Below, piece after piece: positions 4,700-32,005 of a stretch of 64,000 bases of DNA. The DNA lies in the NCBI GenBank assembly GCA_000018565.1, contig CP000875.1, positions 2,619,199 through 2,683,198 of the forward strand. Direction: 5' to 3'. The position numbers were made by a program, and so were the translations under genes. Numbering within the stretch: the stretch's first letter is position 1; every line of letters starts with the position of its first letter. Source of the DNA: Herpetosiphon aurantiacus DSM 785. GTDB lineage: Bacteria; Chloroflexota; Chloroflexia; Chloroflexales; Herpetosiphonaceae. The notes beneath the pieces are model-generated. The model searched no databases. It saw nothing but the letters and a program-made list of their open reading frames with translations, and had not been told where the DNA came from.

Positions 4700-5485
4700 C
4701 TAGCCTCCTTCGTGGCGATGACTTAAGGGAAATAACGCCAGCTGAATACGATTGGTAACGGGATGGCGTTGAATAACCGCATTGACCAAAAAAATATCAC
4801 GCAACCAGTGCGGCGTGAGCACCTGTTCTGGTGTGCCCTCGGCAACGATCGTTCCTGCCGACAGCACATACAATCGATCGCAATAGGCTGCGGCAAGATT
4901 AAGATCGTGGACAGTGACCAACGTTGTGATGCCAAGGCTGCGCACGAGTTCGAGGATGTCAAGCTGATAATGAATGTCCAAATGGTTTGTTGGTTCATCC
5001 AACACCAACAATTGCGGTTCTTGGGCTAAAGCCCGCGCAATCAACACCCGCTGTTTTTCACCACCAGAAAGCGTATTGAATGGGCGATTGGCACAATCGA
5101 GCATCTGCACCCGCGCTAATGCCGTTGTCGTCACCTGCCAATCATGGTCGGTATCACCAGCAAAAAAGCCTTTATGGGGGGTTCGACCCATCTGGACCAT
5201 TTTGGCAACCGTAAAGGCCACATCGTGGGTGCTTTCTTGGACAACCGCAGCAGTCTGGCGGGCACTTGTCCGTGGCGACATTTGCCACACATCGTCGTCA
5301 CCAAGCTGCACAAAGCCCGCACTGGGGCGCAACATGCGATAGACCGTCCGTAAAATCGTTGATTTGCCACTGCCGTTTGGCCCAACCAAACCCACAATTT
5401 CACCAGGCTGAACAGCTAAATCAATATTGGAGACAATCTGACGACTGCTCACCGAGACGGCGACGTGGTGAATTGTGAGCTTCAT
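4700..5485 (-). CDS. Siderophore/cobalamin-type ABC transporter ATP-binding protein (FecE/BtuD-like)
   Basis: A 261-residue ABC ATPase of the iron-chelate/B12 class. Walker A is GPNGSGKST, the signature LSGGEKQR, Walker B LLVLDEPTNHLD, and the switch region VTVHDLNLAA is typical of FecE/BtuD proteins. It powers the FecCD permease encoded just upstream, whose stop overlaps this ATG by four bases. The end of the gene carries the ribosome binding site for the DJ-1 gene. The cargo (ferric siderophore, haem or cobalamin) cannot be told from sequence. No cobalamin riboswitch is visible upstream of the operon. Confidence 0.9.
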   Translation of the reverse strand: MKLTIHHVAVSVSSRQIVSNIDLAVQPGEIVGLVGPNGSGKSTILRTVYRMLRPSAGFVQLGDDDVWQMSPRTSARQTAAVVQESTHDVAFTVAKMVQMGRTPHKGFFAGDTDHDWQVTTTALARVQMLDCANRPFNTLSGGEKQRVLIARALAQEPQLLVLDEPTNHLDIHYQLDILELVRSLGITTLVTVHDLNLAAAYCDRLYVLSAGTIVAEGTPEQVLTPHWLRDIFLVNAVIQRHPVTNRIQLALFPLSHRHEGG

Positions 5486-6564
5486 CCGACACCTCCCGAA
5501 CGCTGTCGCATAAGCCAGATAAAAAAGGGTCCTCCAATCATGGCAGTCACAATACCAACGGGCAGTTCTTGGGGTGCGATCACGATTCGCCCAATCAAAT
5601 CAACCAGCACCATATACACCCCTCCCAACAAGGCACTGGTTGGCAAGACATAGCGATGATCCACGCCAACCAACAGGCGGACAATATGCGGTATCATCAA
5701 GCCGACAAATCCAATCGCTCCACTCATGGCAACGACTGTTCCCACCATCAACGAACTCAGCACAAACAGCTGTATCCGAAACCGATGAAGATTCACCCCT
5801 AGACTGATGGCCGTTTCGTCGCCAGCTAAGACCGCATTCAGTGAACGAAATTGCAGCATTAAAAGTCCTGTCGAGCCCAACACCGCAAGGCTGGGAAGAC
5901 CAAGATACTGCCACTTTGCGCCGCCCAAATTTCCGGCCAACCAGGTTAATACCGCTGCGGCACCACCATAGGGCGTAGTTGAGCGCAACACGAGATAGCT
6001 GGTCATCGCTGAGAGCACATAGCCCAACGACACCCCTGCCAAAACCAGGCGTGTTGGGATAACACGACCCGATTGCTGTGCCAAGGCATAGACCACAACC
6101 ATGGTCAGCATGGCCCCACCGAATGCCGCGAACGACAGGGATAATCCGCCAATAGCAGCAGTACCAAGGGTGAGCACTGCAACCGCTGCCACGGATGCGC
6201 CCGAGGAAACACCAAACAGATACGGATCGGCAAGAGGATTTCGCACCATGGCTTGGAGGGCTGTCCCACTGACTGATAGTGCCGCACCAACAATGACGGC
6301 TAATAACACCCGCGGCAGGCGAAATTGCCACACAATCTGGTCTTGCGTGGGAGTCCATGTCACGGAAACTGTGTTCGGCATCAGGTGGTTGAGAATAATC
6401 TTGGCAACGATCGGCACGGGCACTGAAACCGAGCCAATAGCAACACCAAGCAAAATGACCCCAATCAACATGAGCGTGAGTACCACCAGCAACCCCCCAA
6501 TGGCGGGAATTGCTGGTGGTACGCGCGGTGACGATTGTGGGTCATGGGAATGACGCACGATCAC
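5482..6564 (-). CDS. FecCD-family ABC transporter permease
   Basis: A 360-residue membrane protein of the FecCD/BtuC family (PF01032), with about nine to ten membrane segments. Diagnostic stretches are RLPRVLLAVIVGAALSVSG, ALQAMVRNPLADPYLFGVSSGA and GAIGFVGLMIPHIVRLLVG. It would move iron-chelate or cobalamin across the membrane. The first ~30 residues are a hydrophilic N-terminus, slightly longer than usual. It is coupled on both sides by four-base ATGA overlaps, with the binding protein upstream and the ATPase downstream. Confidence 0.92.
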   Translation of the reverse strand: MIVRHSHDPQSSPRVPPAIPAIGGLLVVLTLMLIGVILLGVAIGSVSVPVPIVAKIILNHLMPNTVSVTWTPTQDQIVWQFRLPRVLLAVIVGAALSVSGTALQAMVRNPLADPYLFGVSSGASVAAVAVLTLGTAAIGGLSLSFAAFGGAMLTMVVVYALAQQSGRVIPTRLVLAGVSLGYVLSAMTSYLVLRSTTPYGGAAAVLTWLAGNLGGAKWQYLGLPSLAVLGSTGLLMLQFRSLNAVLAGDETAISLGVNLHRFRIQLFVLSSLMVGTVVAMSGAIGFVGLMIPHIVRLLVGVDHRYVLPTSALLGGVYMVLVDLIGRIVIAPQELPVGIVTAMIGGPFFIWLMRQRSGGVG

Positions 6565-7592
6565 TCGAATACCTCTGGGTGCAGCGCCCGAGCAATTTGC
6601 TCAAGGCCATCAATAATGCGAATACTGGCTTCGGTATTAATCGTGGGAATAGGTATCAACCGATTATTTTGGACTGCTGGGATGGTCGGAAAGGTTGTTT
6701 TGAGATACGACTCCAGCATTGCGGCATCCTGACCAGGAAATGTCCCCAGCAAAATGACATCGGGTTGCGCCGCCGCAAATTCTTCGGCACTCACTTGAAA
6801 AACATCCTGATCAAAGACATTTTTTCCGCCAGCTCGCACAATCAAATCGCCCCAGACTCCACCCGAGAGCACGTTGAGCGGGCCTTCTCCCCCGGTGTAG
6901 AACAGAACGTTCACAGGTGAAACCCCAACCATCCGTTGTTCAATCGCGGCTTGACGGGACTGAAGGTCGGTGATAATCGCATTAGCTCGTTCCGACACCC
7001 CAAAAATCGCCCCCAAGTTCGCAAGATCAGTATAGACTTGCTCAAGACGTTTGCTTCCTGCATCAGCCATCGTACAGGCATTGTTGGAATAGACCTGTGC
7101 CCCAGCGGCTTCCAATTCAGCGACCGTGGCATACCCTGAATTGCTATCGAATGCAAAGCCTTCGAGTTGTTCCGAGATAACGAAATCAGGATTTTCGGCA
7201 AGCGTCACTTCTTTGACCGGCCATTGCATCGCCGTCCCGATTTGTTTGAGGGTCGCGGCTTCGGCCTGAAGATTTGCGGGATAGTCATCGTAATTGCCAC
7301 CAACCGCAACAATGCGGTCACCTAAACCTAAGGCAAGCAGCATTTCCGTTGGTGGTTGCCAGAGACTAATTATCCGCTCTGGCGCTTTCGCAAAGGTAAG
7401 TTTCCGCCCACAGTTTTCAATCGTGACAGGGTACCCTGCCGATGCTGGAGCAGTGGTGGTACTGATCGTTGCGGTACTCGTTGATGGATTCGTTGGTTGA
7501 ACCGCATCAGGGGTCTGGGTGGTAAGGGTTGTCCCACAAGCAGTGATGATCAGCAAGACACCAATCATGGGTGCGAAACAATGTTTTAACAT
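6561..7592 (-). CDS. Iron-chelate/cobalamin-type substrate-binding lipoprotein (class III binding protein)
   Basis: A 343-residue extracytoplasmic binding protein (PF01497 type). The N-terminus is a lipoprotein signal ending LLIITAC (Cys19), followed by a Thr/Pro-rich linker. The domain shows PERIISLWQPPTEMLLALGLGDRIVAVGG near residue 90, typical of class III binding proteins for siderophores and B12. It delivers the ligand to the FecCD permease encoded immediately downstream. The ATG at 7592 is preceded by AAAGAG. A hairpin lies in the leader at 7625-7647. Confidence 0.9.
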   Translation of the reverse strand: MLKHCFAPMIGVLLIITACGTTLTTQTPDAVQPTNPSTSTATISTTTAPASAGYPVTIENCGRKLTFAKAPERIISLWQPPTEMLLALGLGDRIVAVGGNYDDYPANLQAEAATLKQIGTAMQWPVKEVTLAENPDFVISEQLEGFAFDSNSGYATVAELEAAGAQVYSNNACTMADAGSKRLEQVYTDLANLGAIFGVSERANAIITDLQSRQAAIEQRMVGVSPVNVLFYTGGEGPLNVLSGGVWGDLIVRAGGKNVFDQDVFQVSAEEFAAAQPDVILLGTFPGQDAAMLESYLKTTFPTIPAVQNNRLIPIPTINTEASIRIIDGLEQIARALHPEVFE

Positions 7593-9081: not shown

Positions 9082-11514
9082 CTATTCTGGCTGAAGCCTC
9101 AGCGTCGTTTGGGTTTCAGCGGGCTGTGGCAAGCGCATTGGCAGATATTCGCCACGTTGCCATGGTTCAAGTAAATCGTCAAAATGGGTGCTCAGGATAT
9201 GCGCCGATTGCCCAGGGGTTTGGATATAGACGGCGTTATCAAGCGCACCAAGATCCACAATTTGGCGATAGATCGGCCCACCATATTGCACAAAATCAAT
9301 CCGATCGGTTGGACCAGCATTGATCGTCGCGCTATCACCGCCATTGCCAATTGTATGACCAAACCAGCTATCAAGCGGTTCGATGCCAGCGAATACGGCA
9401 TGTGGGAAGACTGCTTGGTGGATTGAATCCCAACGCCATTGCTCAATCTCGCCGCCATGCTCAGCGCTTAATTCGGCCAGCGTTTGCTCCAACACCCGAC
9501 CGATCAATAATGCGCACGATTCAGGCTCGGCAGTTGTTTGATCATCACACCACGCCTGATCGTTGGTTTGCAAGATGGTGGGAATCGCCAGCGCAAAAAA
9601 TTGTTCATGATAGCTATACGAGCGCCAGAGTTGCTCACCTATATCATCAACTACAATTGCCCGTGCCAAGCGCAAGTACCATGTTTCGTAGATTGCCGCC
9701 GCCGCACTATCACTTGTCAAGCTTGCATCCCAGTTTTTGAGCAATTCCAAGGCTTGCAAGGCTTGGGGATTAGTGGTTTGGGCCGTGAGCAATAACGGTA
9801 AAAGCTGTTGAGCTTGCAATGAGCGTTGATCAGCCTGCATTCGTTGCATATCAGCTTGATCAAAGGTTGGCTTTTCACTGAGCAATTGCCAAATTCGCTG
9901 AGCACGATAGGCTGGAGCCCAACTGCGGCTAATCAACAAGGGATAATCATCGGCAACTGCCTGATTATTGGCCGAAACCAGCATGCCACTTGGCGGATTA
10001 TAGCTAAATGGCAATTCATCAAACTCACTCAAGCGTAACCACGCTGCCTGCTGATTCCAACCTTCAACGGGCAAGCGGCCATCACCGTTAGCGCGAATTG
10101 GCAAGCGGCCAGCGATTTGCAAGCCAATATTGTTATTGACATCGGCATAGCTAAAGTTTTGCATAGGGGCTTGGTACCAGGCCAAAGCTGCGCGAAATGT
10201 CTGCCAATCGCTGGCAAGATTCAATTGCAACAAAGCAGTGATGGTTGTATCAGTCGGTTCGAGCGCAGTCCAACGCAACGCAAGCACTTGGTTGGTGGCT
10301 TGTAGTTCAGCATCAACATCGGAGATAATCGGCCCATTCCGACTACTGCGTACTTGCAGCATGTGATCTGGTTGATCTTTAACTTTAATTATTTCATCGC
10401 GTCGAGTCAACGGATAAGGTTTGCCCAGATATTCAGCGTTGCCTGCTTGATCAAGCCGTTCGATCACCAAATCTTGCACGTCAACCCCGGTATTCGTCAG
10501 CCCCCAGGCAATCGAACGATTATGCCCAATCATCACTGCCGGAACACCAGGTAAGGTTGCACCAATTACGTCAAGTTCACCGGCTTGAATCTGGGCTAGA
10601 TACCAAATTGAGGGTGCTTGGGCCGCAAGATGAGGGTCATTTGCCAGCAATGGCTTACCACTGCTAGTATGTTGGCCTGCCAAAACCCAACTATTGCTGC
10701 CTACATAACTCCCAGCAAGCTTAAATTGCTGATGCAACTGCTCAACTCGGGTCAACAGGCTTGTACAACTGTCGGCATTAGCTCCACAGAAGTTAGAGCT
10801 GGCCATCGTCGGAGCAGGAGCCGAACCAGCGCTATAGGTTGCATCGGGCAAAATCAATGGATCGTCGGGGCTAGCCGCTGGCAACAAAAAAGCTGCGCGT
10901 TCTGGCCCAACCTGAGCAATGAGCTGGCTATACAAAACCTCAGCACTCCAATTGGCCCCAAGGCTCCAAGCCTGTAACTTCCCAGTCAACAGCACATCGA
11001 TTGGCTGCCACAAACGTGGGCTAAACCCCAGAATAGTAAATTCTGGCGGCAAATCCATGCCATCGTGATGAATAATAAATTGATTGATTCCCGCAATATA
11101 AGCTTGAATTGCCTGTTGACTAGCTGGATCAAGCGCGTTCCAAGCGTTTACAGCAGCATCAACCAAGCCTAAAGCTCGCAAAAATCGATCAGTTTCGATC
11201 GTTGCTGGGCCAAGCACCTCCGAAAGCTCGCCCCGTGCCAAGCGGCGCTGAAACTCCAGCTGCCACAGCCGATCTTGGGCATGCACAAAGCCTAATCCAA
11301 ACAAGCCATCATGATAATTGGCAGCCTGTATATGCGGCACTCCAGCTTGATCGCGCACAATTGTGACAGGTTGTTGAATCCCAGTCAGCTCAATTGTGCC
11401 GCTGGTTTGGGGCAACGACTGGCGTAAATACACATAGCCGCCAGTACCTGTGATCAAGCCAAGCACGAGCAAGCCCAACAAAATCCAGCGCGTAAATTTC
11501 CAAATTCGACGCAT
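9082..11514 (-). CDS. Penicillin-acylase family (Ntn) hydrolase, membrane-anchored
   Basis: An 810-residue precursor of the penicillin amidase family (PF01804). Residues 10-30 form an N-terminal membrane anchor, and the small-subunit region has QPVTIVRDQAGVPHIQA and GLGFVHAQDRLWQLEFQRRLARGELSE. Autocleavage would occur before the Ser of GSNSWVLAG (about residue 276), which becomes the N-terminal nucleophile. Downstream family motifs are LLANDPHLAAQAPSIWY and GHNRSIAWGLTNTGVD. The anchor places the enzyme outside the cytoplasmic membrane. In pyoverdine maturation the related PvdQ removes the fatty acyl group from an exported precursor. Here, next to an FAAL-primed NRPS line, a similar deacylation is likely but not proven. 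Confidence 0.9.
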   Translation of the reverse strand: MRRIWKFTRWILLGLLVLGLITGTGGYVYLRQSLPQTSGTIELTGIQQPVTIVRDQAGVPHIQAANYHDGLFGLGFVHAQDRLWQLEFQRRLARGELSEVLGPATIETDRFLRALGLVDAAVNAWNALDPASQQAIQAYIAGINQFIIHHDGMDLPPEFTILGFSPRLWQPIDVLLTGKLQAWSLGANWSAEVLYSQLIAQVGPERAAFLLPAASPDDPLILPDATYSAGSAPAPTMASSNFCGANADSCTSLLTRVEQLHQQFKLAGSYVGSNSWVLAGQHTSSGKPLLANDPHLAAQAPSIWYLAQIQAGELDVIGATLPGVPAVMIGHNRSIAWGLTNTGVDVQDLVIERLDQAGNAEYLGKPYPLTRRDEIIKVKDQPDHMLQVRSSRNGPIISDVDAELQATNQVLALRWTALEPTDTTITALLQLNLASDWQTFRAALAWYQAPMQNFSYADVNNNIGLQIAGRLPIRANGDGRLPVEGWNQQAAWLRLSEFDELPFSYNPPSGMLVSANNQAVADDYPLLISRSWAPAYRAQRIWQLLSEKPTFDQADMQRMQADQRSLQAQQLLPLLLTAQTTNPQALQALELLKNWDASLTSDSAAAAIYETWYLRLARAIVVDDIGEQLWRSYSYHEQFFALAIPTILQTNDQAWCDDQTTAEPESCALLIGRVLEQTLAELSAEHGGEIEQWRWDSIHQAVFPHAVFAGIEPLDSWFGHTIGNGGDSATINAGPTDRIDFVQYGGPIYRQIVDLGALDNAVYIQTPGQSAHILSTHFDDLLEPWQRGEYLPMRLPQPAETQTTLRLQPE

Positions 11515-11621: not shown

Positions 11622-13193
11622 TTAAAAACGTAGTTGTGCCAACCATTGTTGAAGGCTTGTTCGATCAAGCGTTGGTAGCATAACCTCAGTTGCTGCAAGC
11701 GCAGCTTGCATCGCAGTTTGATCATAGGCTTGCTCAGCATGTGGGCCATTCACTGCCGCTTGCGCTAAGGTTAACAGTGATTGCAGAGAAGTATTTGGTA
11801 CATCCTTGGTTTGCCGCTGTAATTGCAGCATCCACTGATCAAGATCAACCTGTTCAATGGGATACCCAAGTTCTTGCATCCAATTAATCAGTTGATTCCA
11901 AGCGATATGCTGTTGGTTGACCAAATGATACGTTTGCCCTTGGCCGCTTGGCTGCAACGAAAGCGCCACCATCGCTTGGGCCACATAAGCAACCGGAGTA
12001 ATTTCAGCCAACCGATCAACCAACGGCGCACGACCTAACTGCAAACAGCCTTGGAGCAACCGATACAAACCATCACCACGATTCCACTGACCCGTTTGAG
12101 TATCCCAACCAATGCGGCCTGGCCGATAACAATTAATCGGAATACCGCGGGCGCGGGCTTGCAGCAACAGGTGTTCAGCAACCCACTTGGTTTGGGCATA
12201 GCCAGTGATGAGGCCATCTGGTGTTGATGGCAGTTCTTGCTCATAGCGTACTGTAGCAGCGGTGTTTGCTGGAAAAACACTGGTCGTAGAACTAAAGTGC
12301 ATTGATTTAAGCTTGACTTGACTTGCCAAACGCAGCAAATCAATGGTTGCTTGCACATTACTAGCTTTGAGTTGGGCATATGAATGCGCCAGATTTACGA
12401 CTGCGCCATTGTGATAAATCCGATCAATAGTTTGAGCCAACATCTGCCAGTCTGCCGCAGTCATGCCTAACTGCGGAAGGCTCAGATCCCCAAGCATCAC
12501 GATGAGCCGTGAAGCAAAGGCTGGCTCCCAACGATTGGCATGTTCAAGCTGTTGGCGAATTTTGGCAAAAGCTTGGGTCTCATCAGCGGCTCGTACCACA
12601 CAATAGATGTGGGCAGATGTTTGTGTGAGCAATTCAGCCAACAAATATGGCCCCAAAAAGCCAGTTGCCCCGGTCAACAGGATTGATTGGGGCATGTGCT
12701 CGTGATAGGGAGCTAGACCAAGCGGATTGATTGCTGGATCAAGCACAATTTCATCGAGCAAATTACGCTGATCGGTGATAGCGACACCATGAGCAAGTTG
12801 GGCAATCGTTGGTTGCTCAAATAATTGACGCGCTGTCAGCCGAATGCCAGCCTGATTGGCTCGCGCGGCCACCTGAATACTAGTAATCGAATCGCCACCC
12901 AAGGCAAAGAAATTATCGTGAATCCCCACCTGTGGCACACGCAAGGTTTGCTGCCAAATGTAAGCAAGCTGCTGTTCAGTGGTAGTGCGCGGTGCAACAT
13001 AGTGCTCAGGATCACTATATTGTTGAAAATCGATAGTTGGCAGGGCTGCCCGATCAACCTTGCCATTCGGCAAACGTGGAATCTGCCTAAGTTCGACAAA
13101 TGCCGTTGGTAGCATTGACTCAGGCAAATGGTGCTGAAGATACTCGCGCAACGGCAGTGCCGCAGCACTATTAACCTTATTGATTAAATTCAT
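11622..13193 (-). CDS. NRPS fragment: A-domain C-terminal subdomain - PCP - terminal reductase
   Basis: A 523-residue protein that begins inside an adenylation domain. Residues 15-50 carry the A-domain lid ending with motif A10 (LPNGKVDRAAL, Lys about 43), but there is no A core. A carrier domain follows (NFFALGGDSITS, Ser about 101), then a thioester reductase domain with the NAD(P)H motif GATGFLGPYLL near 176, the SST segment, and catalytic Tyr and Lys in GYAQTKW near 330. The reductase would release the chain as an aldehyde or alcohol. The missing A core is the end of the NRPS encoded at 14283-20066; the hydroxylase gene lies between. The ATG has CGGAG 9 bases upstream, so it is separately translated. 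Confidence 0.9.
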   Translation of the reverse strand: MNLINKVNSAAALPLREYLQHHLPESMLPTAFVELRQIPRLPNGKVDRAALPTIDFQQYSDPEHYVAPRTTTEQQLAYIWQQTLRVPQVGIHDNFFALGGDSITSIQVAARANQAGIRLTARQLFEQPTIAQLAHGVAITDQRNLLDEIVLDPAINPLGLAPYHEHMPQSILLTGATGFLGPYLLAELLTQTSAHIYCVVRAADETQAFAKIRQQLEHANRWEPAFASRLIVMLGDLSLPQLGMTAADWQMLAQTIDRIYHNGAVVNLAHSYAQLKASNVQATIDLLRLASQVKLKSMHFSSTTSVFPANTAATVRYEQELPSTPDGLITGYAQTKWVAEHLLLQARARGIPINCYRPGRIGWDTQTGQWNRGDGLYRLLQGCLQLGRAPLVDRLAEITPVAYVAQAMVALSLQPSGQGQTYHLVNQQHIAWNQLINWMQELGYPIEQVDLDQWMLQLQRQTKDVPNTSLQSLLTLAQAAVNGPHAEQAYDQTAMQAALAATEVMLPTLDRTSLQQWLAQLRF

Positions 13194-13205
13194 AATTCAG
13201 CTCCG

Positions 13206-14264
13206 TTAACCATTGATTGCATTAGCAACATCGCCATGGGTGGTTGGATGAGCCATACCCACCAGCACCTGACGGCTGCCCGTAAATGGTGAACGCGCAT
13301 GAGCCACCAACATATTGTCGAGCATCAGCACATCGCCACGCTCCCACGGAAACATAATCGTTTCGGCGTGGTAGGCTGCCCGCAGCGTTTCCATTACCTC
13401 TGGCTCAATTGGGCTGCCATCGCCGTAATAGCTGTTGTTTGGCAATTGTTCGGGCTTAAATTGGGCCAATAAGCCATCGCGAATCGGTGCTTCAAGTGTA
13501 CTCACATGGAAAAAAGTTGCATGATTAAACCAAACGAGATCGCCAGTAATGGGATGGGTTGCCACAGCTCGACCCATGCGGCGGGTTTGCAAATGGTCGT
13601 TTTCGCCCCAGATTGCCTGCATCCCAACTCGCTCGCAATAGGCATCGACCTCAGCCCGATCGGCAGTTTGAAAGACATTGCGCCAATCAAGACCAACGCC
13701 GCCGCCAAAGTTGCGCACATACAAAATGCCGCGATCAATAAAACGTTGGCGCAAGGCTGGGTCAAGCCGTTGATAAACCTTGCGCACATCAGCAATCGGG
13801 GTTTCGCCGCCCGTGGCCGGCTCGATCGTACAGCAGAAGAAAATTTGGCGCGGCCAGGCTTGTTGATACGAATTTTCGTTATGCAGAAAAATCGTTTGAT
13901 CAGCCGGATGCTCGGTCGAAGTGTAGATATTGCCTTGCACTTGGCTGCGCGGCGACGAGCGCTCACGATATTCCAGCAACTCACCTGAGGCAGCGCTTAT
14001 CACCGTCTCGAAAGCTTGGGCGGTATCTACGCCAAAACCACGGAATAAAACCCCGCCGTAATGATGCAATTGCGTCGTCAGCCACGCTAAGTTATTGGTT
14101 GCCCATTGCGCTAAATCAACCCCGGCAACGCTTGGCCGCACCACCAAAGGCAAGTTTTGGCCCTCACTTAAAAAGCTCGTCGTCACCAACGCTTGTTGAT
14201 CGGTCGCTAAGGCTTGGCGTTTAATGCTGCCAAGTTGTTTTTTCAAACCAGATTTTGCTTCCAC
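13206..14264 (-). CDS. TauD/SyrP-like Fe(II)/2-oxoglutarate hydroxylase
   Basis: A 352-residue TauD-superfamily dioxygenase of the SyrP/AsnO-like, NRPS-associated group. Iron ligands are visible as His-x-Glu in FLHNENSYQ (about residues 128-130) and a distal His in LVAHARSPFTGSRQV (about 322); the downstream Arg should bind 2-oxoglutarate. The short Lys/Arg-rich N-terminus (LKKQLGSIKRQAL) resembles that of other NRPS hydroxylases. Such enzymes beta-hydroxylate Asp or Asn on a carrier domain. The GTG at 14264 has AGGAG 8 bases upstream, and the gene ends 12 bases before the next start. It sits between the two halves of a split A domain. The likeliest substrate is the Asx residue of the upstream NRPS. 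Confidence 0.9.
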   Translation of the reverse strand: MEAKSGLKKQLGSIKRQALATDQQALVTTSFLSEGQNLPLVVRPSVAGVDLAQWATNNLAWLTTQLHHYGGVLFRGFGVDTAQAFETVISAASGELLEYRERSSPRSQVQGNIYTSTEHPADQTIFLHNENSYQQAWPRQIFFCCTIEPATGGETPIADVRKVYQRLDPALRQRFIDRGILYVRNFGGGVGLDWRNVFQTADRAEVDAYCERVGMQAIWGENDHLQTRRMGRAVATHPITGDLVWFNHATFFHVSTLEAPIRDGLLAQFKPEQLPNNSYYGDGSPIEPEVMETLRAAYHAETIMFPWERGDVLMLDNMLVAHARSPFTGSRQVLVGMAHPTTHGDVANAING

Positions 14265-14282
14265 AGCTAAAACTCCTATTGT

Positions 14283-17200
14283 TTAATTGCGTGGCTCGAT
14301 ATAGGCCACCAAGCGTAATTGACCATGCTGATCGGGCTGAGCGGTAACCACAGCCTCGCGTAAGGCGGGGTGTTGGCGCAGCAGTTGGGCAATTTCTTCA
14401 AGCTCAATCCGAAAACCGCGAATTTTGACCTGTTGATCGATGCGACCTAAGAATTCAAGCTGACCATCGGGCAACCAACGGGCTAAATCGCCAGTGCGAT
14501 ACAAGCGCTGGCCTGGCTGTTCGGCCCATGGGTCGGGCATAAACCGCTCGGCGGTCAGCGCTGGTTGTTGCCAATAGCCGCGACTAATACCCGCACCAGC
14601 AATCAACAATTCGCCAGCAACTCCAATTGGCACAGGCTGCAAGCTTGGATCAACTACATAGGCTTGGATCGTGGCAATCGGGCCGCCAATTGAGATCGGT
14701 TGTTGCGGTACTAGTTTGGCAACGCTTGCCCAAACCGTCGCCTCGGTTGGGCCATATTCGTTGTATAGGGCACACGTTGACAGTTGTTGATAATGGCGAT
14801 TGACCAAGCTGGTGGTACAGGCCTCGCCCGCGACCACGACCACGCGCAAACTAGCTAATTGGCTTAATTCGGCTTGTTCCAACAATACCGCGTACAACGA
14901 CGGAATTGCCAAGGTATGGCTAATCTGATGATGTTCGACCATGCTGGCTAGCGCTAGAACATCGTGGCGTTGCGCTTGATCGGGCAGTACCAAACAGCCA
15001 GCTTGGCTCAGTGTCCAGAAAATTCCAGCGATCGAGCTATCGAAGGCATACGATGAAAGCAATAAAAAGCTCGTCAGCGGCTCGCGATAGGCAAGCGTTC
15101 GGGCAAACGTGGAGCTATGCAGATTGGCATGACTGACCACCACACCCTTGGGGCGGCCTGTCGAACCAGAGGTATAGATCAGATAGGCGGCCTGCGCCGG
15201 ATGAATCGTGACTGGCACAAATGGCGCTTGGGCAGAATCTAAATCAGCAAGGCCTAAACAGGCAGAGTTTGCAGGTAGGTTTTGCCAGATGTCTGGCTGT
15301 TGGCAAATCAAGAGCTTCAATTCAGCATCGCTCGCCATCAATTCAAGCCGCTCACGTGGGTAGTTGGGGTCAAGTGGCACATAAGCAGCCCCTGTTTTGA
15401 GCACCGCCAAAATCGCCACAATCAAGCTGGTTGAATGCTCAAGGCTGATACCAACCCGGGTTTCTGCACCAATCCCCTGCGTTTGTAAATAGCCCGCCAA
15501 AGCCGTTGCGCGTTGCTCAAGCTCAGCATAGCTCAACGCCCCATCATAGGCTTGGATGGCTTGGGCAGTTGGCTGCTGTTGAGCCACTTCGGCCAGCCAA
15601 CCAACAAGATCAGGCGACGATTGTGCAACTTCGGTGCGATTAAATCCAAGCAATAGGTGTTGCTCAGTATCACTCAACAATGGCATAGCGCGATAATCTG
15701 CCGCAGGGTCGGCAACCATCGCGGTCAGACAGACTTGATAATAGCCTGCAATCGCTTCGATTTGGGCATTGGTCAAAATTCGCCCATCACAGGTCAAACT
15801 CAAGTTAATGTCATTCGTAAAGGGATCGATGCGGAAGTTGGCAACTAATGGAAAACTCGAAACTTCGTAGGGCAGCACATCAAGCAACTCCAGCTCACTG
15901 ATGTTTTGCAAGGCTTGGAAGATATGGTAGTGGGTGAAGTAGAACAAACTCTCCGACCAAGCCAAACCGCCGTTGTGGCGTTGCAACTCGGCAGTTGGGT
16001 AGCGCCGATGCTCCAGACTGGCACGTTCAGCAGCAAAGGTCTGCATAATAAGTTCACGCCACGTTGGCTGATTCAGCTGCATTCGTAGAGGAATACTATT
16101 GATAAACAAGCCCAAAACCCGTTCACCATCAAGGGTTTCAGGCCGCCCACTCGAAACCATGCTGGTCACTACATCGAACTGACCAGTCAGGATGCTAATC
16201 ACCCGTAAATGCGCTGCCAACAGCACATCTTTAATTGGCACGGCAAGCTGGCGAGCCAAGGCTTTAAGTGCTTGCGAAAGCTCAGCACTAATTGCAACTG
16301 GTTGTGATTGGCTGGTGTTTGAACGCGGCACATTCGGCCAGCGCGGCAAGCGCATCGGGCTGGCTTGGGCCAAATGGTCAGCCCAAAATTGCTGGGTCGC
16401 AGGATTCTGAATTGCTGCTTGTTCTAGCCGTACAAATTCGTGATAGCCAATTTGAGGCGCAACAAGGCTACTGGTTTGGCCTTGCAAGCGCCGCGCATAA
16501 TCGCTAAACAGCTCAGTCAGCATTATCGCATCGCTCCAGCCATCGATCACCGCATGGTGAAAGCTCAGCGAAAATTGCAATTCATCATCAGCCCGCACAT
16601 GCACTTGGAACCGCAATAACGGCAGGCTACTTGGCTCAAAACCGCGCTGCTTTTCGGCGGCGATCCAAGCTTCAATTAATTGATCGTGCTGTTCAACAGG
16701 CTGGTTGCGCAGATCGATAATATTCAACAGGTTTGCGCCTTGGGCATGCACCACTTGCAACGGCTCGCTGGCGCTGGTCAGATCAAAACTAGTGCGTAGC
16801 GCTGGATGCCGCACCACTAAATCATCGACGATCAGTTGCAACAACGCCAAATCGAGCACGACCCGCATCCGATAGCTAAAAATATCGTGGTACAGCGCTT
16901 GTTCAGGGTTGAATTGGTTGTGGAAAATCATGCCACCCTGCAACTTGGCAATCGGGAAGGCATCAACAATAGTATTTGGGAGCAAGGCATGATCAGCAGG
17001 GCTAATCAAACTGAAGGGTGTGTATTCGATTATTTGATTTTCTGTAGAGCAGACCATAGTTTGAACCAAACTACGAATCGTCGGCTGATTGAACAGCATT
17101 TCAACACTCAGATTTAAGCCGCGCTGTTTGGCTTGGGCCACCACCTGAATGCTGCGAATTGAATTGCCGCCTAATGCAAAAAAATTATCATCAATCCCAA

Positions 17201-20066
17201 TCATTGGGTGCTCAAGCACCTGTTCCCAAATGGCTGCCAAAATTTCTTCTTCAGGGGTCGTTGGGGCAACATAATTGTTTATAGCGGTTGGTTCGGGCAA
17301 GGCCGCCCGATCAATTTTGCCATTCGCGGTCAACGGCCATTGCTCAACCAACACAACGTTGCTTGGTAACATGTACTGTGGCAGGAATTGTTGGGCATAT
17401 TTCAACACCACTTGTTCACTCAATTGCGTGGAGTCGGCATCGGGTGTGGCTTGGAGATAGGCGACCAAGCGTTGATCGTCGCCTGTGCCACGCAGCAAGA
17501 CCAGTGCTGAAGCGACCATTGGCAAGCGTTGCAGCACTGCCTCAATCTCGCCCAGCTCAATTCGATAGCCACGCAATTTGATTTGCGTATCACGCCGCCC
17601 AAGATATTCCAGCGTTCCATCCCAGGCCCAACACGCCAAATCGCCAGTGCGATACAGCCGTGCGCCAGCGATTCCACTCAGGTTATCAGGTACAAACTGG
17701 GCAGCGGTCAGATCAGGGCGCTGATTATAACCGCGGGCAACCCCAACTCCACCAATATACAGCTCACCAACAACCCCAAATGGCACAGGTTGCAAGCGCT
17801 CATCAAGCACATACAAACGCATATTGGCAATTGGCAAACCAATCGAAACCGCGCCAGCAGCCGAATCAGTGGTTTGGGTTTGGTAGATCGAACAGCCAAC
17901 CACTGTTTCAGTTGGGCCATATTCGTTGAACAAGCGGGTTTCAGGAGCGTGGGTGCGCCATGGAGCCAACGTAGTTGCATCAAGCGCCTCACCGCCAATC
18001 ACCAAGGCCCTACTGCGTTGAGCCAAATCAGCACTAGTGATCAATTGATTCAGCACCGCCAAATGCGCTGGTGTCAGTTTGAGCAAACTCAGATCAGTGC
18101 TGGCTCGCAGTGCTTGGGCTAGCGTTTCAACCCCAGCATTGCTTGGCAATAAACGCACGGTTTGGCCAGCACACAAGGGCACAAGCAAACTGGTTACGGT
18201 CAAATCGAAGGCTAATGGCGAATGCACCAACGAACCTGTACCAGCCGCCAAATCGTAGGCCGTGATCGCCCATTGCACATAGTTGCTCAAACCAGCGTGG
18301 CTGACCATCACACCCTTGGGCTGGCCGGTCGAGCCAGAGGTATACAGCAGATAGGCCAATTGCGCAGGCTGATAGTTCAAACGTGGCGCGGCACTCGCTT
18401 GATCAAATTGCAACTGATCGACCGCCAATTGGGCAACGCTACACGGCAAACTAGGCATGAGGCTGGTTTGGCTCAACACCAACTGAATCGCCGCATCAGC
18501 AAGAATATACTGAATCCGCTCGGCGGGATACTCTGGCTCTAAGGGCACATAGGCCGCGCCAGCCTTGAGACACGCCAACAAGGCCACGACCATCAGCGGC
18601 GAGCGCTCAAGATACAAGCCAACCCGCTGCTCGGGTTGAATACCGTGTTGGATTAATTGTTGGGCCAGTTGGTTGGCTTGCTGAGCCAACTCGGCATAAC
18701 TCAGTTGCTCTGCACCAAATTGCACAGCAATTGCTTGCGGATTGTGTAGTGCCTGCTGATCAATCAGATCGTGAATTGGCGTTGCAGCAAATGGCCGATC
18801 GGTTGCATTGACCTGCTTAGTCAATAATGTTTGGGTATTGCTCCCAATGATTGGCAGTTGCCCAAAGGTCGGGTTGGATTGTTGCCCAAGCCAAACCAGC
18901 ATTGTGATTAAGCTCTCAGCCAAGGCCTCGGCAACCTCAGAGCGCATGCTAGTTGCATCGTAATCTAAGGTCAATTGCCAGCTTGTAGCTTGCTCGATCA
19001 GGCTTAATTTACAGCGAAACAGATCAGTATGGCTGGTCAGGTGTTCAAGCTGATAGTGCGCCGCTGTTTCCCAACGATAATGGGCAAATGCCAACGCTAA
19101 CGGCTGATCCAACGCAAGTTGCTGCCAACTGAAATACTCTTGGAACTGCGCTAAATCGGCTAGCTGTTGGGCTAGCGTGGTTATAGCCTCGGCGATTGGC
19201 TGATCGGCAGCAAGTTCGTTTGGTAACAATGGCAGATAGCGCTCAAACAAGCCTTGGGCATTGGCCAACTCTGCATACGAACGGCCATCGCAGGCCAGCG
19301 CCAACGCTGGCGTTTGCCCATAATTGCTGCGGCTGAGCAACCAACGCCAAAGGCTGAGCACCGTACTCGCTAAATCAACATTATGTTGAGTAAACCAAGC
19401 ATTAATCGCGATACTGCTGCTTGCAGGAAGGTTAAGCTTGATCCGAGTGGGCTGGGTTTGGGTCAAGCGTGCAAAGCCCCGCAGATCATGCGGTGCTTGC
19501 TTAATCGCCTGCGTTTGCCAAAATGCCCGTTCAGCGGCGCTTTCGGCTGCTTCGAGCAAGCCATTTTGCCATTCAGCAGCGTCAATATACTGCATCAGCT
19601 CATCGCTTGCGCTCAATTCATGCGGAGCCAACGCGGCTTGGGTCAATTCTTCGAGCAGCAATCGGGCACTAGTGGCATCGCCAACCAAGGCCGCTAGCCA
19701 CAACCCAAGCCATTGCTGTTGGCCATGCTCAAATAACGTAATCTGCATCAAACCAGCATCAGCTGGCGCTGCAAGCTCAGCAATCTGATGCGATTCGGCT
19801 ATTTGCTGCTGATGCAAGACCACTGTTTGGTTGTGCAGCACTTGGGCTGGTAGCTTTAGCCCAGCGATCTGCTCGAAACGGGTACGCAACGCCTCATGGC
19901 GCTCGATCACAACATTCAAGCCAGCTTGCCAACGTTCATAACGAAGCGGAGTGGTTAACTCAACCAGCAGCCATGTGCCCAAGGGTTGCTGGCTTTGTGG
20001 TTGAACCAACCATGTATGGGTTTGTTGCGGCGATAGCCGAAAATGCTCAACTTCATGTTGCTGCAT
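14283..20066 (-). CDS. NRPS: C-like (interface-type) - A(Asn/Asp-type) - PCP - C - A core
   Basis: A 1927-residue synthetase. It starts with a C-like domain whose HHxxxDG motif is replaced by LAALVGDATS (about 129). Next comes an A domain (YTSGSTGQPKG about 579, NGKIDR about 915) whose pocket residues read by eye give DLTKVGEVG, close to Asn codes. Then a PCP (GGNSIRS about 967) and a C domain with intact SFHHAVIDGWS (about 1172). The second A domain is complete through A8 (QVKIRGFRIELEE about 1882) but stops at LVAYIEPRN without the A10 lysine; its code reads DSALVAEVW, which I cannot assign. No thioesterase or epimerase is present. The missing A lid is in the gene at 11622-13193. Confidence 0.93.
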   Translation of the reverse strand: MQQHEVEHFRLSPQQTHTWLVQPQSQQPLGTWLLVELTTPLRYERWQAGLNVVIERHEALRTRFEQIAGLKLPAQVLHNQTVVLHQQQIAESHQIAELAAPADAGLMQITLFEHGQQQWLGLWLAALVGDATSARLLLEELTQAALAPHELSASDELMQYIDAAEWQNGLLEAAESAAERAFWQTQAIKQAPHDLRGFARLTQTQPTRIKLNLPASSSIAINAWFTQHNVDLASTVLSLWRWLLSRSNYGQTPALALACDGRSYAELANAQGLFERYLPLLPNELAADQPIAEAITTLAQQLADLAQFQEYFSWQQLALDQPLALAFAHYRWETAAHYQLEHLTSHTDLFRCKLSLIEQATSWQLTLDYDATSMRSEVAEALAESLITMLVWLGQQSNPTFGQLPIIGSNTQTLLTKQVNATDRPFAATPIHDLIDQQALHNPQAIAVQFGAEQLSYAELAQQANQLAQQLIQHGIQPEQRVGLYLERSPLMVVALLACLKAGAAYVPLEPEYPAERIQYILADAAIQLVLSQTSLMPSLPCSVAQLAVDQLQFDQASAAPRLNYQPAQLAYLLYTSGSTGQPKGVMVSHAGLSNYVQWAITAYDLAAGTGSLVHSPLAFDLTVTSLLVPLCAGQTVRLLPSNAGVETLAQALRASTDLSLLKLTPAHLAVLNQLITSADLAQRSRALVIGGEALDATTLAPWRTHAPETRLFNEYGPTETVVGCSIYQTQTTDSAAGAVSIGLPIANMRLYVLDERLQPVPFGVVGELYIGGVGVARGYNQRPDLTAAQFVPDNLSGIAGARLYRTGDLACWAWDGTLEYLGRRDTQIKLRGYRIELGEIEAVLQRLPMVASALVLLRGTGDDQRLVAYLQATPDADSTQLSEQVVLKYAQQFLPQYMLPSNVVLVEQWPLTANGKIDRAALPEPTAINNYVAPTTPEEEILAAIWEQVLEHPMIGIDDNFFALGGNSIRSIQVVAQAKQRGLNLSVEMLFNQPTIRSLVQTMVCSTENQIIEYTPFSLISPADHALLPNTIVDAFPIAKLQGGMIFHNQFNPEQALYHDIFSYRMRVVLDLALLQLIVDDLVVRHPALRTSFDLTSASEPLQVVHAQGANLLNIIDLRNQPVEQHDQLIEAWIAAEKQRGFEPSSLPLLRFQVHVRADDELQFSLSFHHAVIDGWSDAIMLTELFSDYARRLQGQTSSLVAPQIGYHEFVRLEQAAIQNPATQQFWADHLAQASPMRLPRWPNVPRSNTSQSQPVAISAELSQALKALARQLAVPIKDVLLAAHLRVISILTGQFDVVTSMVSSGRPETLDGERVLGLFINSIPLRMQLNQPTWRELIMQTFAAERASLEHRRYPTAELQRHNGGLAWSESLFYFTHYHIFQALQNISELELLDVLPYEVSSFPLVANFRIDPFTNDINLSLTCDGRILTNAQIEAIAGYYQVCLTAMVADPAADYRAMPLLSDTEQHLLLGFNRTEVAQSSPDLVGWLAEVAQQQPTAQAIQAYDGALSYAELEQRATALAGYLQTQGIGAETRVGISLEHSTSLIVAILAVLKTGAAYVPLDPNYPRERLELMASDAELKLLICQQPDIWQNLPANSACLGLADLDSAQAPFVPVTIHPAQAAYLIYTSGSTGRPKGVVVSHANLHSSTFARTLAYREPLTSFLLLSSYAFDSSIAGIFWTLSQAGCLVLPDQAQRHDVLALASMVEHHQISHTLAIPSLYAVLLEQAELSQLASLRVVVVAGEACTTSLVNRHYQQLSTCALYNEYGPTEATVWASVAKLVPQQPISIGGPIATIQAYVVDPSLQPVPIGVAGELLIAGAGISRGYWQQPALTAERFMPDPWAEQPGQRLYRTGDLARWLPDGQLEFLGRIDQQVKIRGFRIELEEIAQLLRQHPALREAVVTAQPDQHGQLRLVAYIEPRN

Positions 20067-20078
20067 ACAATCATCCTT

Positions 20079-21593
20079 CTATTGGGTTGGCTCGGTGCTC
20101 GACCGTCGCCGATTCAGGATTAATTTGGAACGATTTGCTGCCTTGCGTTGCTCCAGCCGTTGCTGTTGAAGCTCGCGCTCGTGGCTTTGGCAACGCTGCA
20201 CCGCAACCGCAAGCGTGATCGTCGGTTCAAGCACGATCAACTGAAGCACCAGCTGATAGCGCTCAAGTAATTGCTGCATGCGCTGCGCTGCGAAAATATC
20301 GGTGTTGTAATCAAGGGTTCCCGCTAAGCCTGCATGCTCTTCCCAAAGATTGATCAGCAAATCAAATTTGGCAGTGTGCGGATCAAGATCCATGCGTTCA
20401 AGCTGCACACCTGCTAGTTGTAAGTTGGGCAAGGGCGTGTTTTGCAACACAAATTTGACCTGAAACAACGGCGTGCGGCTGGGGTCGTGGGCAACGTTCA
20501 ACCATTCGACAACTTGATCGAATGGCACATGTTGGTGGTCAAAGGCCGCTAATGTGAGCTGGCGGGTTTGTTGTAGGCTTGCTTGGAACGATTGATGCGG
20601 CTGAACTTGTTGACGTAGCACCAATTGATTAATGAAAAAGCCGATCAATTGATGGGTCTCAGGCTGTTGTCGCCCTGCAACATCAGTGCCAACCACTAAA
20701 TCAGTTTGCTCACTTAGCCAGTGTAAAAGCCAATAAAATGCCGTTAGCAAACTCATAAATAAGGTTGCGCTCTGGCTTTGACTAAGTTGCTTGAGTTGTT
20801 CGACCAACTCCCTCGGCAAGCGCCAAGCGATTTGTGCCCCCTGAAACGATTGAACAGCAGGTCGAGGATAGTCGGTTGGCAAGGCCAGAGTTGGTACATC
20901 GTGCAAGAGCTTCAGCCAAAAATCACGGCTGCTTTGGGTCAGCGTTGCTGGCTGTTGGGCTTGCCAACAGGCATAATCGCCATAGTGAATTGCCAGCGGA
21001 GCAAGGTTTAACGCTGCGCCTGTGGCAAAATGCGCATAGGCCAGCGCCAAATCGTGCATCAACACACCTAACGACCAACCATCAGCAATAATGTGATGCA
21101 GCATCAACCCTAAAACATGCTGCTCTGGAGCACAGCGCCACAACGCGGCACGCCATAACGGCGCGTGCTGCAAATCAAATGGTTGTCGGGCATAGTGGCG
21201 TAACTGAGTTTCAAGCTGGGTTTGATCAAGCTCAACCAACCCCAATTCTACCTGCCAAGGCTCGTGAATCTGTTGATATGCACCTTGGTTGTCAGGCTGA
21301 ATGCTGGTGCGTAGCACTTCATGGCGTTGGAGCAACCAACTCAGGCTCGTCGCCAAAGCAGCACGATCCAACGAACCGTTGATCATCAGCAAACAGGGCA
21401 TGATGTAGGTAGCCTGGCCTGGCCGCATTTGCTCAACCAGCCAAAGCCGTTGCTGTGCCAACGATAACGGCACCATTTGCGCAGGATCACGCGGCGTAAT
21501 CGCTGGCGTTGCTTGGCGTTGCAAGCGTAATTGTTCAAGCAAGGCGCGTTTTTCGGGCGAAAGCTGCGCCAAGCGTTGCTGGAGAGCATCCAT
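20079..21593 (-). CDS. Stand-alone NRPS condensation domain protein
   Basis: A 504-residue protein made of one condensation domain. It has an N-terminal docking-like helix (LQQRLAQLSPEKRALLEQLRL), the usual LSLAQQRLWLVEQ motif, an intact catalytic motif LMLHHIIADGWS (His about 169) and GTDVAGRQQPETHQLIGFFINQLVL. The C-terminus is a basic tail (KAANRSKLILNRRRSSTEP). By motif it is of the LCL type. It is encoded 12 bases after the first synthetase and 12 bases before the second, whose own N-terminal C-like domain lacks the catalytic His. It probably joins the Gly-PCP of the first synthetase to the Asx-PCP of the second, acting in trans. Confidence 0.9.
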   Translation of the reverse strand: MDALQQRLAQLSPEKRALLEQLRLQRQATPAITPRDPAQMVPLSLAQQRLWLVEQMRPGQATYIMPCLLMINGSLDRAALATSLSWLLQRHEVLRTSIQPDNQGAYQQIHEPWQVELGLVELDQTQLETQLRHYARQPFDLQHAPLWRAALWRCAPEQHVLGLMLHHIIADGWSLGVLMHDLALAYAHFATGAALNLAPLAIHYGDYACWQAQQPATLTQSSRDFWLKLLHDVPTLALPTDYPRPAVQSFQGAQIAWRLPRELVEQLKQLSQSQSATLFMSLLTAFYWLLHWLSEQTDLVVGTDVAGRQQPETHQLIGFFINQLVLRQQVQPHQSFQASLQQTRQLTLAAFDHQHVPFDQVVEWLNVAHDPSRTPLFQVKFVLQNTPLPNLQLAGVQLERMDLDPHTAKFDLLINLWEEHAGLAGTLDYNTDIFAAQRMQQLLERYQLVLQLIVLEPTITLAVAVQRCQSHERELQQQRLEQRKAANRSKLILNRRRSSTEPTQ

Positions 21594-30011: not shown

Positions 30012-30037
30012 TATCGCTTTCTGAAATCTATCATTCT

Positions 30038-30058
30038 GGAAGCATAGGGGAGGCTTCC
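30038..30058 (-). other. Short hairpin just upstream of the synthetase start
   Basis: GGAAGC (30038-30043) and GCTTCC (30053-30058) form a 6-bp stem about 27 bases before the proposed GTG start at 30011, in what would be the 5' untranslated leader. It could influence initiation at the non-ATG start. Support is limited to the pairing. Confidence 0.25.
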
Positions 30059-30135
30059 TAAAATACACACCTCGTCCAAGCGAGCATTCTAAACAGGTTT
30101 GAGGCCTAATGCAGTCGCAAATCAAACAATATTCT

Positions 30136-30162
30136 TGTCATATATCACACCAATATTTGGTG
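30136..30162. promoter_or_regulatory. Palindromic sites in the divergent synthetase/mbtH promoter region
   Basis: CACCAATATTTGGTG (30148-30162) has perfect 6-bp arms around TAT. Next to it TGTCATATATCACA (30136-30149) is a near-palindrome. Both lie in the AT-rich gap between the divergently transcribed synthetase and MbtH genes, where a shared regulator would be expected to act. Neither matches the palindrome in front of the Crp-type regulator gene, so the binding factor is open. Confidence 0.4.
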
Positions 30163-30237
30163 CTTAATCAGACAACATTATTTCTTGAGGTTTTCTATAC
30201 TTAGTGATTGTGATCCATTTTCAAGGGGGTATGCCAC

Positions 30238-30453
30238 GTGCAAACAACAGATGACGATACAACAATCTATAACGTTGTGATCAATCACGAAGAACAATAC
30301 TCTATCTGGCCTGCCGAACGCGAAAACCCGCTGGGCTGGAGTAATGTTGGAGTGAGCGGCAATAAACAAACCTGTTTAGATCACATTAAAGCGGTTTGGA
30401 CTGATATGCGGCCATTAAGTTTACGCCAAGCGCTAGCCAACCAATCGGCTTAG
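30238..30453 (+). CDS. mbtH: MbtH-like protein
   Basis: A 71-residue MbtH family protein. The signature is complete: [19 protein letters not shown], then [15 protein letters not shown], including the conserved Trp residues that grip the A domain. MbtH-like proteins bind NRPS adenylation domains and are needed for their folding or activity, so this one probably serves the divergently encoded synthetases. The GTG at 30238 is preceded by AAGGGGG at good spacing; an ATG 12 bases in is out of frame. It is the first gene of the uptake operon. Confidence 0.93.
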
Positions 30454-30549: not shown

Positions 30550-31857
30550 ATGTTTAAGCAGCGAATGATCGCCTTATTTGTGGTAGCAGGCTTGATTAGC
30601 GCTTGTGGCACTCAAACTACACCAACCACAAATCCAACTAGCCCTGCTGCGCCTGTTAGTAGCACACCAACTGTTGTAGCTGAAGCGAGTGCTGTGCCAG
30701 CAGCAACAACCCCAGCAACCAGCGCACCCAGCCCAAGTGCCTGTGTTAGCAATTACGATAGCGCAACCGATTACTTCAGCTCCAAAACTAGCCCAAGCTA
30801 TGCCAAAGAGTGGACGGTTGAGTATGCTAAGCATTACAAAGTTGTCACGGTTGATCTGGATACTGACCCAGTTAAAACCGATTTTGATCGCTATATCTTG
30901 GTGCAGTGTGGCACACCAGCGCCCGTACTTGAAGGCGATTTAGCCAATGCCATGGTCGTAACCATCCCAATTACCCGAGTGTGGGAAGGTGGTAGCAGCA
31001 CCTTTGCCGCTATGGATGCCTTGGGCGTGGTCGATAGCTTGAGCGGTGTGGTTGGCTCGATGACTGGGAGTGCCAACGAGTATCTGCCTTCGATTGCAGC
31101 CCAAGTTGCCAAAGCTAGTGTGATCAAAGAAGCCAGCTATGGCGAAGATCTCGAATTAATCGCTGCTGGCAAGCCCGATATCTACCTCAACACCAATGGC
31201 CGCGAATGGATGACCAACGCTCGCCAAGTAGGTATTCCAGCACTACACTACTCACCATTCTCCGAATCACCACTTGGCTCGGCTGAGCAAGTTAAATTCT
31301 TAGCGTTGTTCTACAACCTCGAAGCCAAAGCTGACGCGATTTTTACACCAATCGAGCGTGAATATTTGGCACTACGCGAAAAAGCTCAAGCAGCAACCAA
31401 CAAACCAAGCGTGCTTATTGGCAATGTAACCCAAGATGGTCGCTTTGGCACACGCAACCTTGATCGGTTAGAATCAGTGTTGATGCGTGACGCAGGCGGC
31501 GAATTAGTGTTGACTGATACCGAATTGAATCTTGGCGGCGGTAGCACTGGCTTTAGCAGCAGTATCGATCTCGAAAAAGCAATTGAAATTGGCGCAAATG
31601 CTGATTTCTGGTTCAACTTGGTTTATGTTCCCAGCGACAATACTGCCAGTGAATTTATTGCCACGAACCCATTAAACGCCAGCTTTAGCGCCTTACAAAA
31701 GGGTAATAGTTTCCATCGTTTTGGCCGTGCCGAGGATTACTTTAGCAATGGTGCGGTCTATGTTGATCAACTGCTTGCTGATGCAGTCAGTATATTGCAC
31801 CCCGAACTTTTGCCCGATCACGAATTAGTCTTTCTCAAACGGATTCCTGGCGAGTAA
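30550..31857 (+). CDS. Iron-siderophore ABC transporter substrate-binding lipoprotein
   Basis: A 435-residue class III binding protein. It has a lipoprotein signal (VVAGLISACG, Cys19), then a long low-complexity Thr/Ala/Pro/Ser linker to about residue 63. In the domain, EWTVEYAKHYKVVTVD, PITRVWEGGSSTFAAMDALGVVDSLSGVV and LIAAGKPDIYLN follow the pattern of ferric-siderophore binding proteins. It is encoded next to the lipopeptide synthetases and upstream of matching permease and ATPase genes, so it most likely captures the iron complex of the locus product. It ends 148 bases before the permease gene, and a repeat element lies in that gap. Confidence 0.9.
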   Translation: MFKQRMIALFVVAGLISACGTQTTPTTNPTSPAAPVSSTPTVVAEASAVPAATTPATSAPSPSACVSNYDSATDYFSSKTSPSYAKEWTVEYAKHYKVVTVDLDTDPVKTDFDRYILVQCGTPAPVLEGDLANAMVVTIPITRVWEGGSSTFAAMDALGVVDSLSGVVGSMTGSANEYLPSIAAQVAKASVIKEASYGEDLELIAAGKPDIYLNTNGREWMTNARQVGIPALHYSPFSESPLGSAEQVKFLALFYNLEAKADAIFTPIEREYLALREKAQAATNKPSVLIGNVTQDGRFGTRNLDRLESVLMRDAGGELVLTDTELNLGGGSTGFSSSIDLEKAIEIGANADFWFNLVYVPSDNTASEFIATNPLNASFSALQKGNSFHRFGRAEDYFSNGAVYVDQLLADAVSILHPELLPDHELVFLKRIPGE

Positions 31858-31872
31858 TGTATGTGCTCATTC

Positions 31873-31960
31873 TTCCCGCCGAGCGAGGAGAAAACCCGCC
31901 ATGATGAACCGAAGGGACTCTCTCTCGCCCGCCGCAGTGGGCGAGAGGTTGGGGTGAGAG
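31873..31960. repeat. Intergenic hairpin repeat inside the uptake operon
   Basis: The gap between binding-protein and permease genes holds a stem-loop, CTCTCGCCC (31922-31930) with GGGCGAGAG (31939-31947), flanked by CCGCCGAGCGAGGAG and GGTTGGGGTGAGAG. A related GGGCGAGGG sequence appears at the right edge of the window after the msrP-like gene. This suggests a dispersed intergenic repeat of this genome. No transposase is present. Confidence 0.5.
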
Positions 31961-32005
31961 CATGAATTTCGAAATAGAGCTAGATTCAAGCGAAAGTTCC
32001 AAGCA

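Follow-up and report, generated by a model that had tools for sequence, protein, structure and literature searches.

A histidine-type adenylation domain divided between separate proteins in a probable siderophore assembly line of Herpetosiphon

Can a nonribosomal peptide synthetase (NRPS) be cut inside one of its own catalytic domains and still work? The question is raised by a locus of the soil bacterium Herpetosiphon aurantiacus DSM 785 (genome G000), which we analysed in a stretch of 64,000 nucleotides (CP000875.1, positions 2,619,199 to 2,683,198; hereafter, the window). A preliminary description of this DNA had proposed that one NRPS (P1) ends after motif A8 of its last adenylation (A) domain, that the next gene but one (P3) begins with the matching A9–A10 lid followed by a PCP and a reductase, and that a TauD-like gene lies between the two. 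The open reading frames and their junctions confirm this layout:

14283–20066, minus strand: P1; interface-like domain – A (Asn type) – PCP – C – A core (His code), ending after A8
14286–14447, minus strand: half C-terminal A subdomain on P1; 54 residues including motif A8
13206–14264, minus strand: TauD; TauD-family Fe(II)/2-oxoglutarate dioxygenase with HxE...H conserved, in the cut between P1 and P3
11622–13193, minus strand: P3; lid (A9–A10) – PCP – thioester reductase
13014–13163, minus strand: lid half on P3; A9 and the A10 lysine (LPNGKVDR)

P1 runs out in ...QLRLVAYIEPRN and stops four residues past the A8 strand (LVAYI-EPRN), with no methyltransferase after A8, and P3 opens with MNLINKVNSAAALPLREYLQHHLPESMLPTAFVELRQIPRLPNGKVDR. 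Only 18 nt separate the P1 stop from the GTG start of TauD and 12 nt the TauD stop from the ATG of P3; the ribosome binding sites previously noted for both downstream genes are in place (AGGAG upstream of the GTG, CGGAG upstream of the ATG), and in two species (G000 and G005) the three genes are separate ORFs with their own stops and starts. Against the Pfam profile AMP-binding_C, the end of P1 covers only positions 1–36 of 76, at a score under the Pfam cut-off. The preliminary description had called for alignment to an intact A domain: on module 2 of LgrA (6mfz), P1 covers residues 1209–1665 and P3 residues 1675–1797, so that in this alignment the two proteins tile a single A–PCP unit with nine residues between them and the cut in the A8/A9 loop. 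As had been anticipated, the A10 lysine would then have to be supplied in trans. Across 175 intact A domains, the median spacing from core to lid is 13 residues; the P1 tail plus the P3 head comes to ~18, so that no docking domain was added at the cut.

The cut falls at the very site where interrupted A domains, which are single polypeptides, carry auxiliary domains between A8 and A9 (PMC8949500). Here, in contrast, the chain itself is severed and TauD is encoded on its own, so that no auxiliary domain lies between A8 and A9 within one polypeptide. Ordinary in-frame A8/A9 inserts of 323 and 424 residues occur elsewhere in G000 (C1:2241553–2243433 and 2167989–2170151), both in intact A domains. 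At C1:1823692–1824975, an A domain of another NRPS region contains an internal TAG stop and is possibly a pseudogene or another break.

Which protein could provide the missing half? When P3 was used as a query against the G000 genome, one match stood far above all other lid–PCPs: the N-terminus of a second core-less lid–PCP protein (70% identity over residues 11–136), whose gene lies just outside the window and had been missed by the preliminary description.

L035 12640–17625: P4; 1,661 aa, lid–PCP–E–C–A–PCP, ~12.7 kb downstream of P3 and outside the 64-kb window

P4 begins with MPTVLEPITPDALSETLRQYLQAYLPDYMLPAAFVPLEQIPRLPNGKIDR, and nothing similar to an A core was found ahead of it; its first condensation-type domain was named E from its position and its HHLVVDG motif. 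We then matched every A core to its lid across the NRPS regions fetched from G000. In these mapped regions, every NRPS core but the second A domain of P1 has its lid, and every full lid but those of P3 and P4 has its core; the polyketide synthase region of the genome gave weak full-length lid matches without the A10-type NGK motif. Both the A10 NGK and the PCP serine are retained in 5/5 lid–PCPs. The preliminary description had considered that a complete A domain in P3 or elsewhere in the operon might replace the split one; no other His-code core exists among those mapped in G000, but the P4 lid–PCP is present in another operon.

The P4 lid evolves differently from the remainder of the protein, with a pN/pS of 0.5–0.9 over codons 10–62 as against 0.17–0.19 for the rest of P4 (Fisher p 0.18 for G000–G005 and ~0.01 for the two pairs with G003; uncorrected values from few changes), whereas the first PCP of P4 is strongly constrained. 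Motif A9 of P4 reads LPDCVLP in G003. The raised nonsynonymous rate could reflect either relaxed constraint or adaptation. An attempt to trace core and lids to a common origin through their nearest relatives gave no support: the relatives of the lids differ from those of the P1 core, the lids are short, and PCP type dominates.

Comparison with related genomes, also proposed earlier, shows that the layout recurs within the genus. In G005, P1, TauD and P3 have the same stop, spacing and starts as in G000, and G003 shares the P1 stop and the TauD start. Split core and P4 are both present in three of six genus genomes (G000, G003 and G005) and both absent from the other three. G003 retains P1, TauD and P4 and has no P3: its TauD is eight residues shorter and is followed directly by the acylase gene described below. 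The split core (dN/dS 0.10–0.16), TauD (0.05–0.07), P3 (0.22) and P4 (0.14–0.16) were compared at dS of up to 0.54. With a dS of ~1.1–1.2 between the lid–PCPs of P3 and P4 and of ~0.5 between P1 of G000 and G003, the duplication behind P3 and P4 seems to predate the separation of the species, and G003 has probably lost its P3. By these sequence comparisons the split is real and old, and in G003 P4 appears as the sole candidate lid for a core still under purifying selection.

P4 is also connected to P1 through the beginnings of their operons, the first of which carries the following features upstream of P1:

21606–30011, minus strand: NRPS1; FAAL-type starter – carrier – C – A (Thr) – PCP – C – A (Gly) – PCP
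20079–21593, minus strand: P0; free-standing C domain, related to the C domain ahead of TauD in other clusters
29996–30171, minus strand: promoter/leader region of the P1 operon, homologous to the region ahead of P4

This operon begins with the FAAL-type starter and has no thioesterase; the other has P4 as its first gene, no starter, and a thioesterase at its end. Ahead of P4, ~205 nt are conserved in three genomes, beyond which the sequences differ (an SmpB-like gene in G005; by eye, apparent transposase remnants in G003). The stretch upstream of P4 matches the 5′ region of NRPS1 at 130/181 positions, with a score of 72 compared to a maximum of 18.5 in 500 shuffles, and the homology extends into the first codons. 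From this homology, NRPS1 probably starts at the GTG at 30011 rather than at the TTG at 30125. The leader core AGAATNNTCGCTTGGACGAGG (allowing at most two mismatches) occurs in G000 and G005 only at these two promoter sites. The two leaders of G003 are related as well (score 55), the copy of its first operon deviating from the core by more than two mismatches, and a second match of the core pattern in that genome (on C2) is unrelated. An RNA family search with the P4 leader returned nothing convincing. The two promoters are ~31 kb apart in G000 and ~148 kb in G005, and in G003 the operons lie on different contigs. It appears as if the downstream half of a gene had captured a copy of its own operon's start.

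The substrate codes, read from the alignment, are Thr, Gly and Asn type, followed by the split core (DSALVAEVWK), in the first operon, and Dab, Thr, Ala and Dab in the second. Except for His, these assignments follow published codes. The split core differs at one position from DSALIAEVWK, a reported His code whose residue can carry a beta-hydroxyl group (PMC12283262). DSALVAEVWK followed by DIWEPTADDK is also found after a TauD relative in Pseudomonas loci, and this order would be expected if P1 hands over to P4. With P4, the predicted product would be acyl-Thr-Gly-Asn-His-Dab-Thr-Ala-Dab, likely a siderophore by class. Three further features belong to this neighbourhood:

30238–30453, plus strand: MbtH-like protein; A-domain partner
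30550–34170, plus strand: siderophore-type uptake genes (binding protein, FecCD permease, ABC ATPase), syntenic in G000, G003 and G005
9082–11514, minus strand: penicillin-amidase-type acylase, conserved beside the cluster

In pyoverdine synthesis, PvdQ removes the fatty acid after synthesis, and by analogy the acylase beside this FAAL-started NRPS may do the same. A second siderophore-type uptake set (4700–7592; binding protein, FecCD and ABC ATPase) lies on the opposite side of the cluster; it is not syntenic in the compared stretch of G005 or in G003, whose contig ends nearby.

What, then, is the dioxygenase gene doing in the cut? TauD matches Pfam PF02668, and H128, E130 and H322 are invariant in nine sequences. 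In many relatives, the TauD gene stands after a C domain and before an interface-like domain plus A domain. The homologue of that interface-like domain is here the N-terminus of P1 (residues 1–430, without HHxxxDG, 25–33% identical to the N-terminal domains of genes that follow TauD elsewhere), and P0 corresponds to the C domain found ahead of TauD in those loci. Since the homologous pieces are P0 and the first 430 residues of P1, TauD probably serves the P1 modules regardless of where it is encoded. Its location between P1 and P3 thus looks incidental, probably a matter of operon order, and the idea of a three-gene version of an interrupted A domain, put forward in the preliminary description, probably does not apply. 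Most likely, TauD beta-hydroxylates a residue of the P1 modules, of which one is Asn-type and one His-type. Its relatives adjoin both Asn/Asp and His codes, and those linked to His in Pseudomonas are 50–52% identical.

The siderophore beta-hydroxylases IBH_His and IBH_Asp of Reitz et al. 2019 (described in PMC12971057) offer a close parallel for this part of the cluster, with which it shares a TauD-family enzyme, a FAAL-type starter, a candidate interface-like domain, siderophore uptake genes and the succession of His and Dab codes. In Pseudomonas and many cyanobacterial relatives, however, TauD precedes the interface–A gene and the A domain is intact, whereas at this locus the dioxygenase gene comes after P1 and the split affects the His A domain. 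A survey of 80 public loci with TauD showed no other gene-level split next to it. Low-scoring orphan cores in this set appear to be FAAL-type domains, and L047 12452–17001 (minus strand), with A8 and A9 halves in overlapping frames, looks like a frameshift rather than a gene-level split. Among intact A domains, the one most closely related to the split core (51%) is a His-code domain of Ktedonobacter (L048 11825–18001, minus strand), which by eye carries a methyltransferase-like insert of 438 residues at A8/A9 and has a TauD gene nearby. G000 itself encodes, in a different NRPS cluster, a second TauD (L036 12803–13870; 53% identical) between C-A-PCP-C-C and C-A-PCP proteins whose A domains are intact.

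A precedent for the split exists in the corallorazine synthetase of Corallococcus coralloides, in which an A domain is cut after A8 into two ORFs: Crz1, which ends in an N-methyltransferase, and the adjacent crz2, encoding A9–A10–T–reductase; the Crz1 half is inactive alone and becomes active on mixing with Crz2 (PMC11342130). The locus studied here resembles this system in the position of the cut and in P3, which has A9–A10 at the start of its ORF followed by T and reductase. It differs in that the methyltransferase is missing, TauD separates P1 from P3, and a second lid carrier, P4, is encoded in another operon. P3 is only 37–38% identical to Crz2-like Corallococcus ORFs of the same domain order, and P3 and Crz2 therefore probably arose separately. 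The three-gene version with a dioxygenase had been thought unusual; the split is real, and an A domain whose lid–T–reductase is on the next gene was already published (PMC11342130). In the open-licence literature, we found no description of one core with two lid-carrier proteins, nor of A-domain halves in separate operons with a duplicated promoter.

From the split, the count of orphan cores and lids, their conservation, the shared promoter/leader and the synteny—features read in the DNA itself—we infer a complex, its activity, two routes, a product and a TauD substrate. In our favoured and rather probable reading, these would belong to a single lipopeptide siderophore assembly line, severed at the A8/A9 loop within the histidine-module A domain. 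The core and one half of the C-terminal subdomain would come from P1. The remaining half, which includes the A10 lysine, and the PCP awaiting its residue would reside on other polypeptides, and these would have to bind P1 for an active domain to form. Two such proteins would supply the lid in trans: P4, from the second operon, on which the chain would be epimerised and extended towards the thioesterase, and P3, from the P1 operon, on which it would be released reductively after His. TauD would act on the P1 modules irrespective of its place. In favour of this reading are the tiling on LgrA and the single orphan core facing exactly two orphan full lids; the co-presence (3/6) and co-absence (3/6) of P1 core and P4, with P4 left in G003, which has no P3; a starter without thioesterase in one operon and a thioesterase without starter in the other; homologous leaders whose core element is confined to two sites in G000 and G005; the His-then-Dab order known from Pseudomonas; purifying selection on whole genes with A10 NGK and PCP serine retained; and, as a direct precedent, the activity of the split A domain in corallorazine synthesis (PMC11342130). 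The raised nonsynonymous change in the P4 lid and the differing nearest relatives of lid and core speak against it, as does the need for the products of two ORFs more than 100 kb apart in G005 to meet as proteins. The two-route reading in particular requires that one core be bound by both P3 and P4. More tentatively, the locus may form a natural branch point, at which the P1 core is completed by either lid carrier and the binding partner decides between release on P3 and elongation on P4 to the thioesterase.

Should P1 instead cooperate with P3 alone, as in corallorazine synthesis, the line would end on the P3 reductase, the P4 lid would be vestigial, and the P4 operon would make something else or have its first PCP loaded via the P3 lid. 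P3 lies in the same operon, 12 nt past TauD, and shares the domain order of Crz2, and the P4 lid is changing more quickly than the remainder of its protein. Yet in G003, which has no P3, purifying selection still acts on P1 and TauD, and that genome would be left without a lid, while the P4 operon lacks a starter, shares its promoter/leader with the P1 operon and encodes a strongly constrained first PCP; we regard this arrangement as unlikely. Less credible still is a partnership of P1 with P4 only, in which P3 would be a side copy without a role, heading for the loss already seen in G003: P4 completes the line and G003 has lost P3 while keeping the rest, but P3 is intact in G000 and G005 (dN/dS 0.22, motifs unimpaired) and stems from a duplication that looks older than the species split. 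That the A domain is simply broken and inactive, or a sequencing error, is very improbable. Gene breakage would naturally yield a split A domain, and P3 is indeed missing from G003; an error is nevertheless contradicted by separate assemblies that show the very same break, its starts, stops and ribosome sites all clean, and decay by conservation, whole-gene dN/dS of 0.05–0.22 over dS of up to 0.54, and intact catalytic motifs.

Split A domains have been shown to work once, between adjacent genes. In Herpetosiphon, the halves of such a domain are found in separate operons, with promoters up to ~148 kb apart, are linked by a duplicated promoter/leader, and have been kept under selection in three species; a second lid protein may offer another way out. 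If the split domain is active, an assembly line can tolerate a cut within one of its catalytic domains, without an added docking domain, and still work. This would reveal an evolutionary route by which NRPS lines are broken and branched, and would point engineers to the A8/A9 loop as a site that is cut in nature. If the branch point holds true as well, the two lid carriers would compete to supply the half that a catalytic domain lacks, and this competition would set the route of the pathway.
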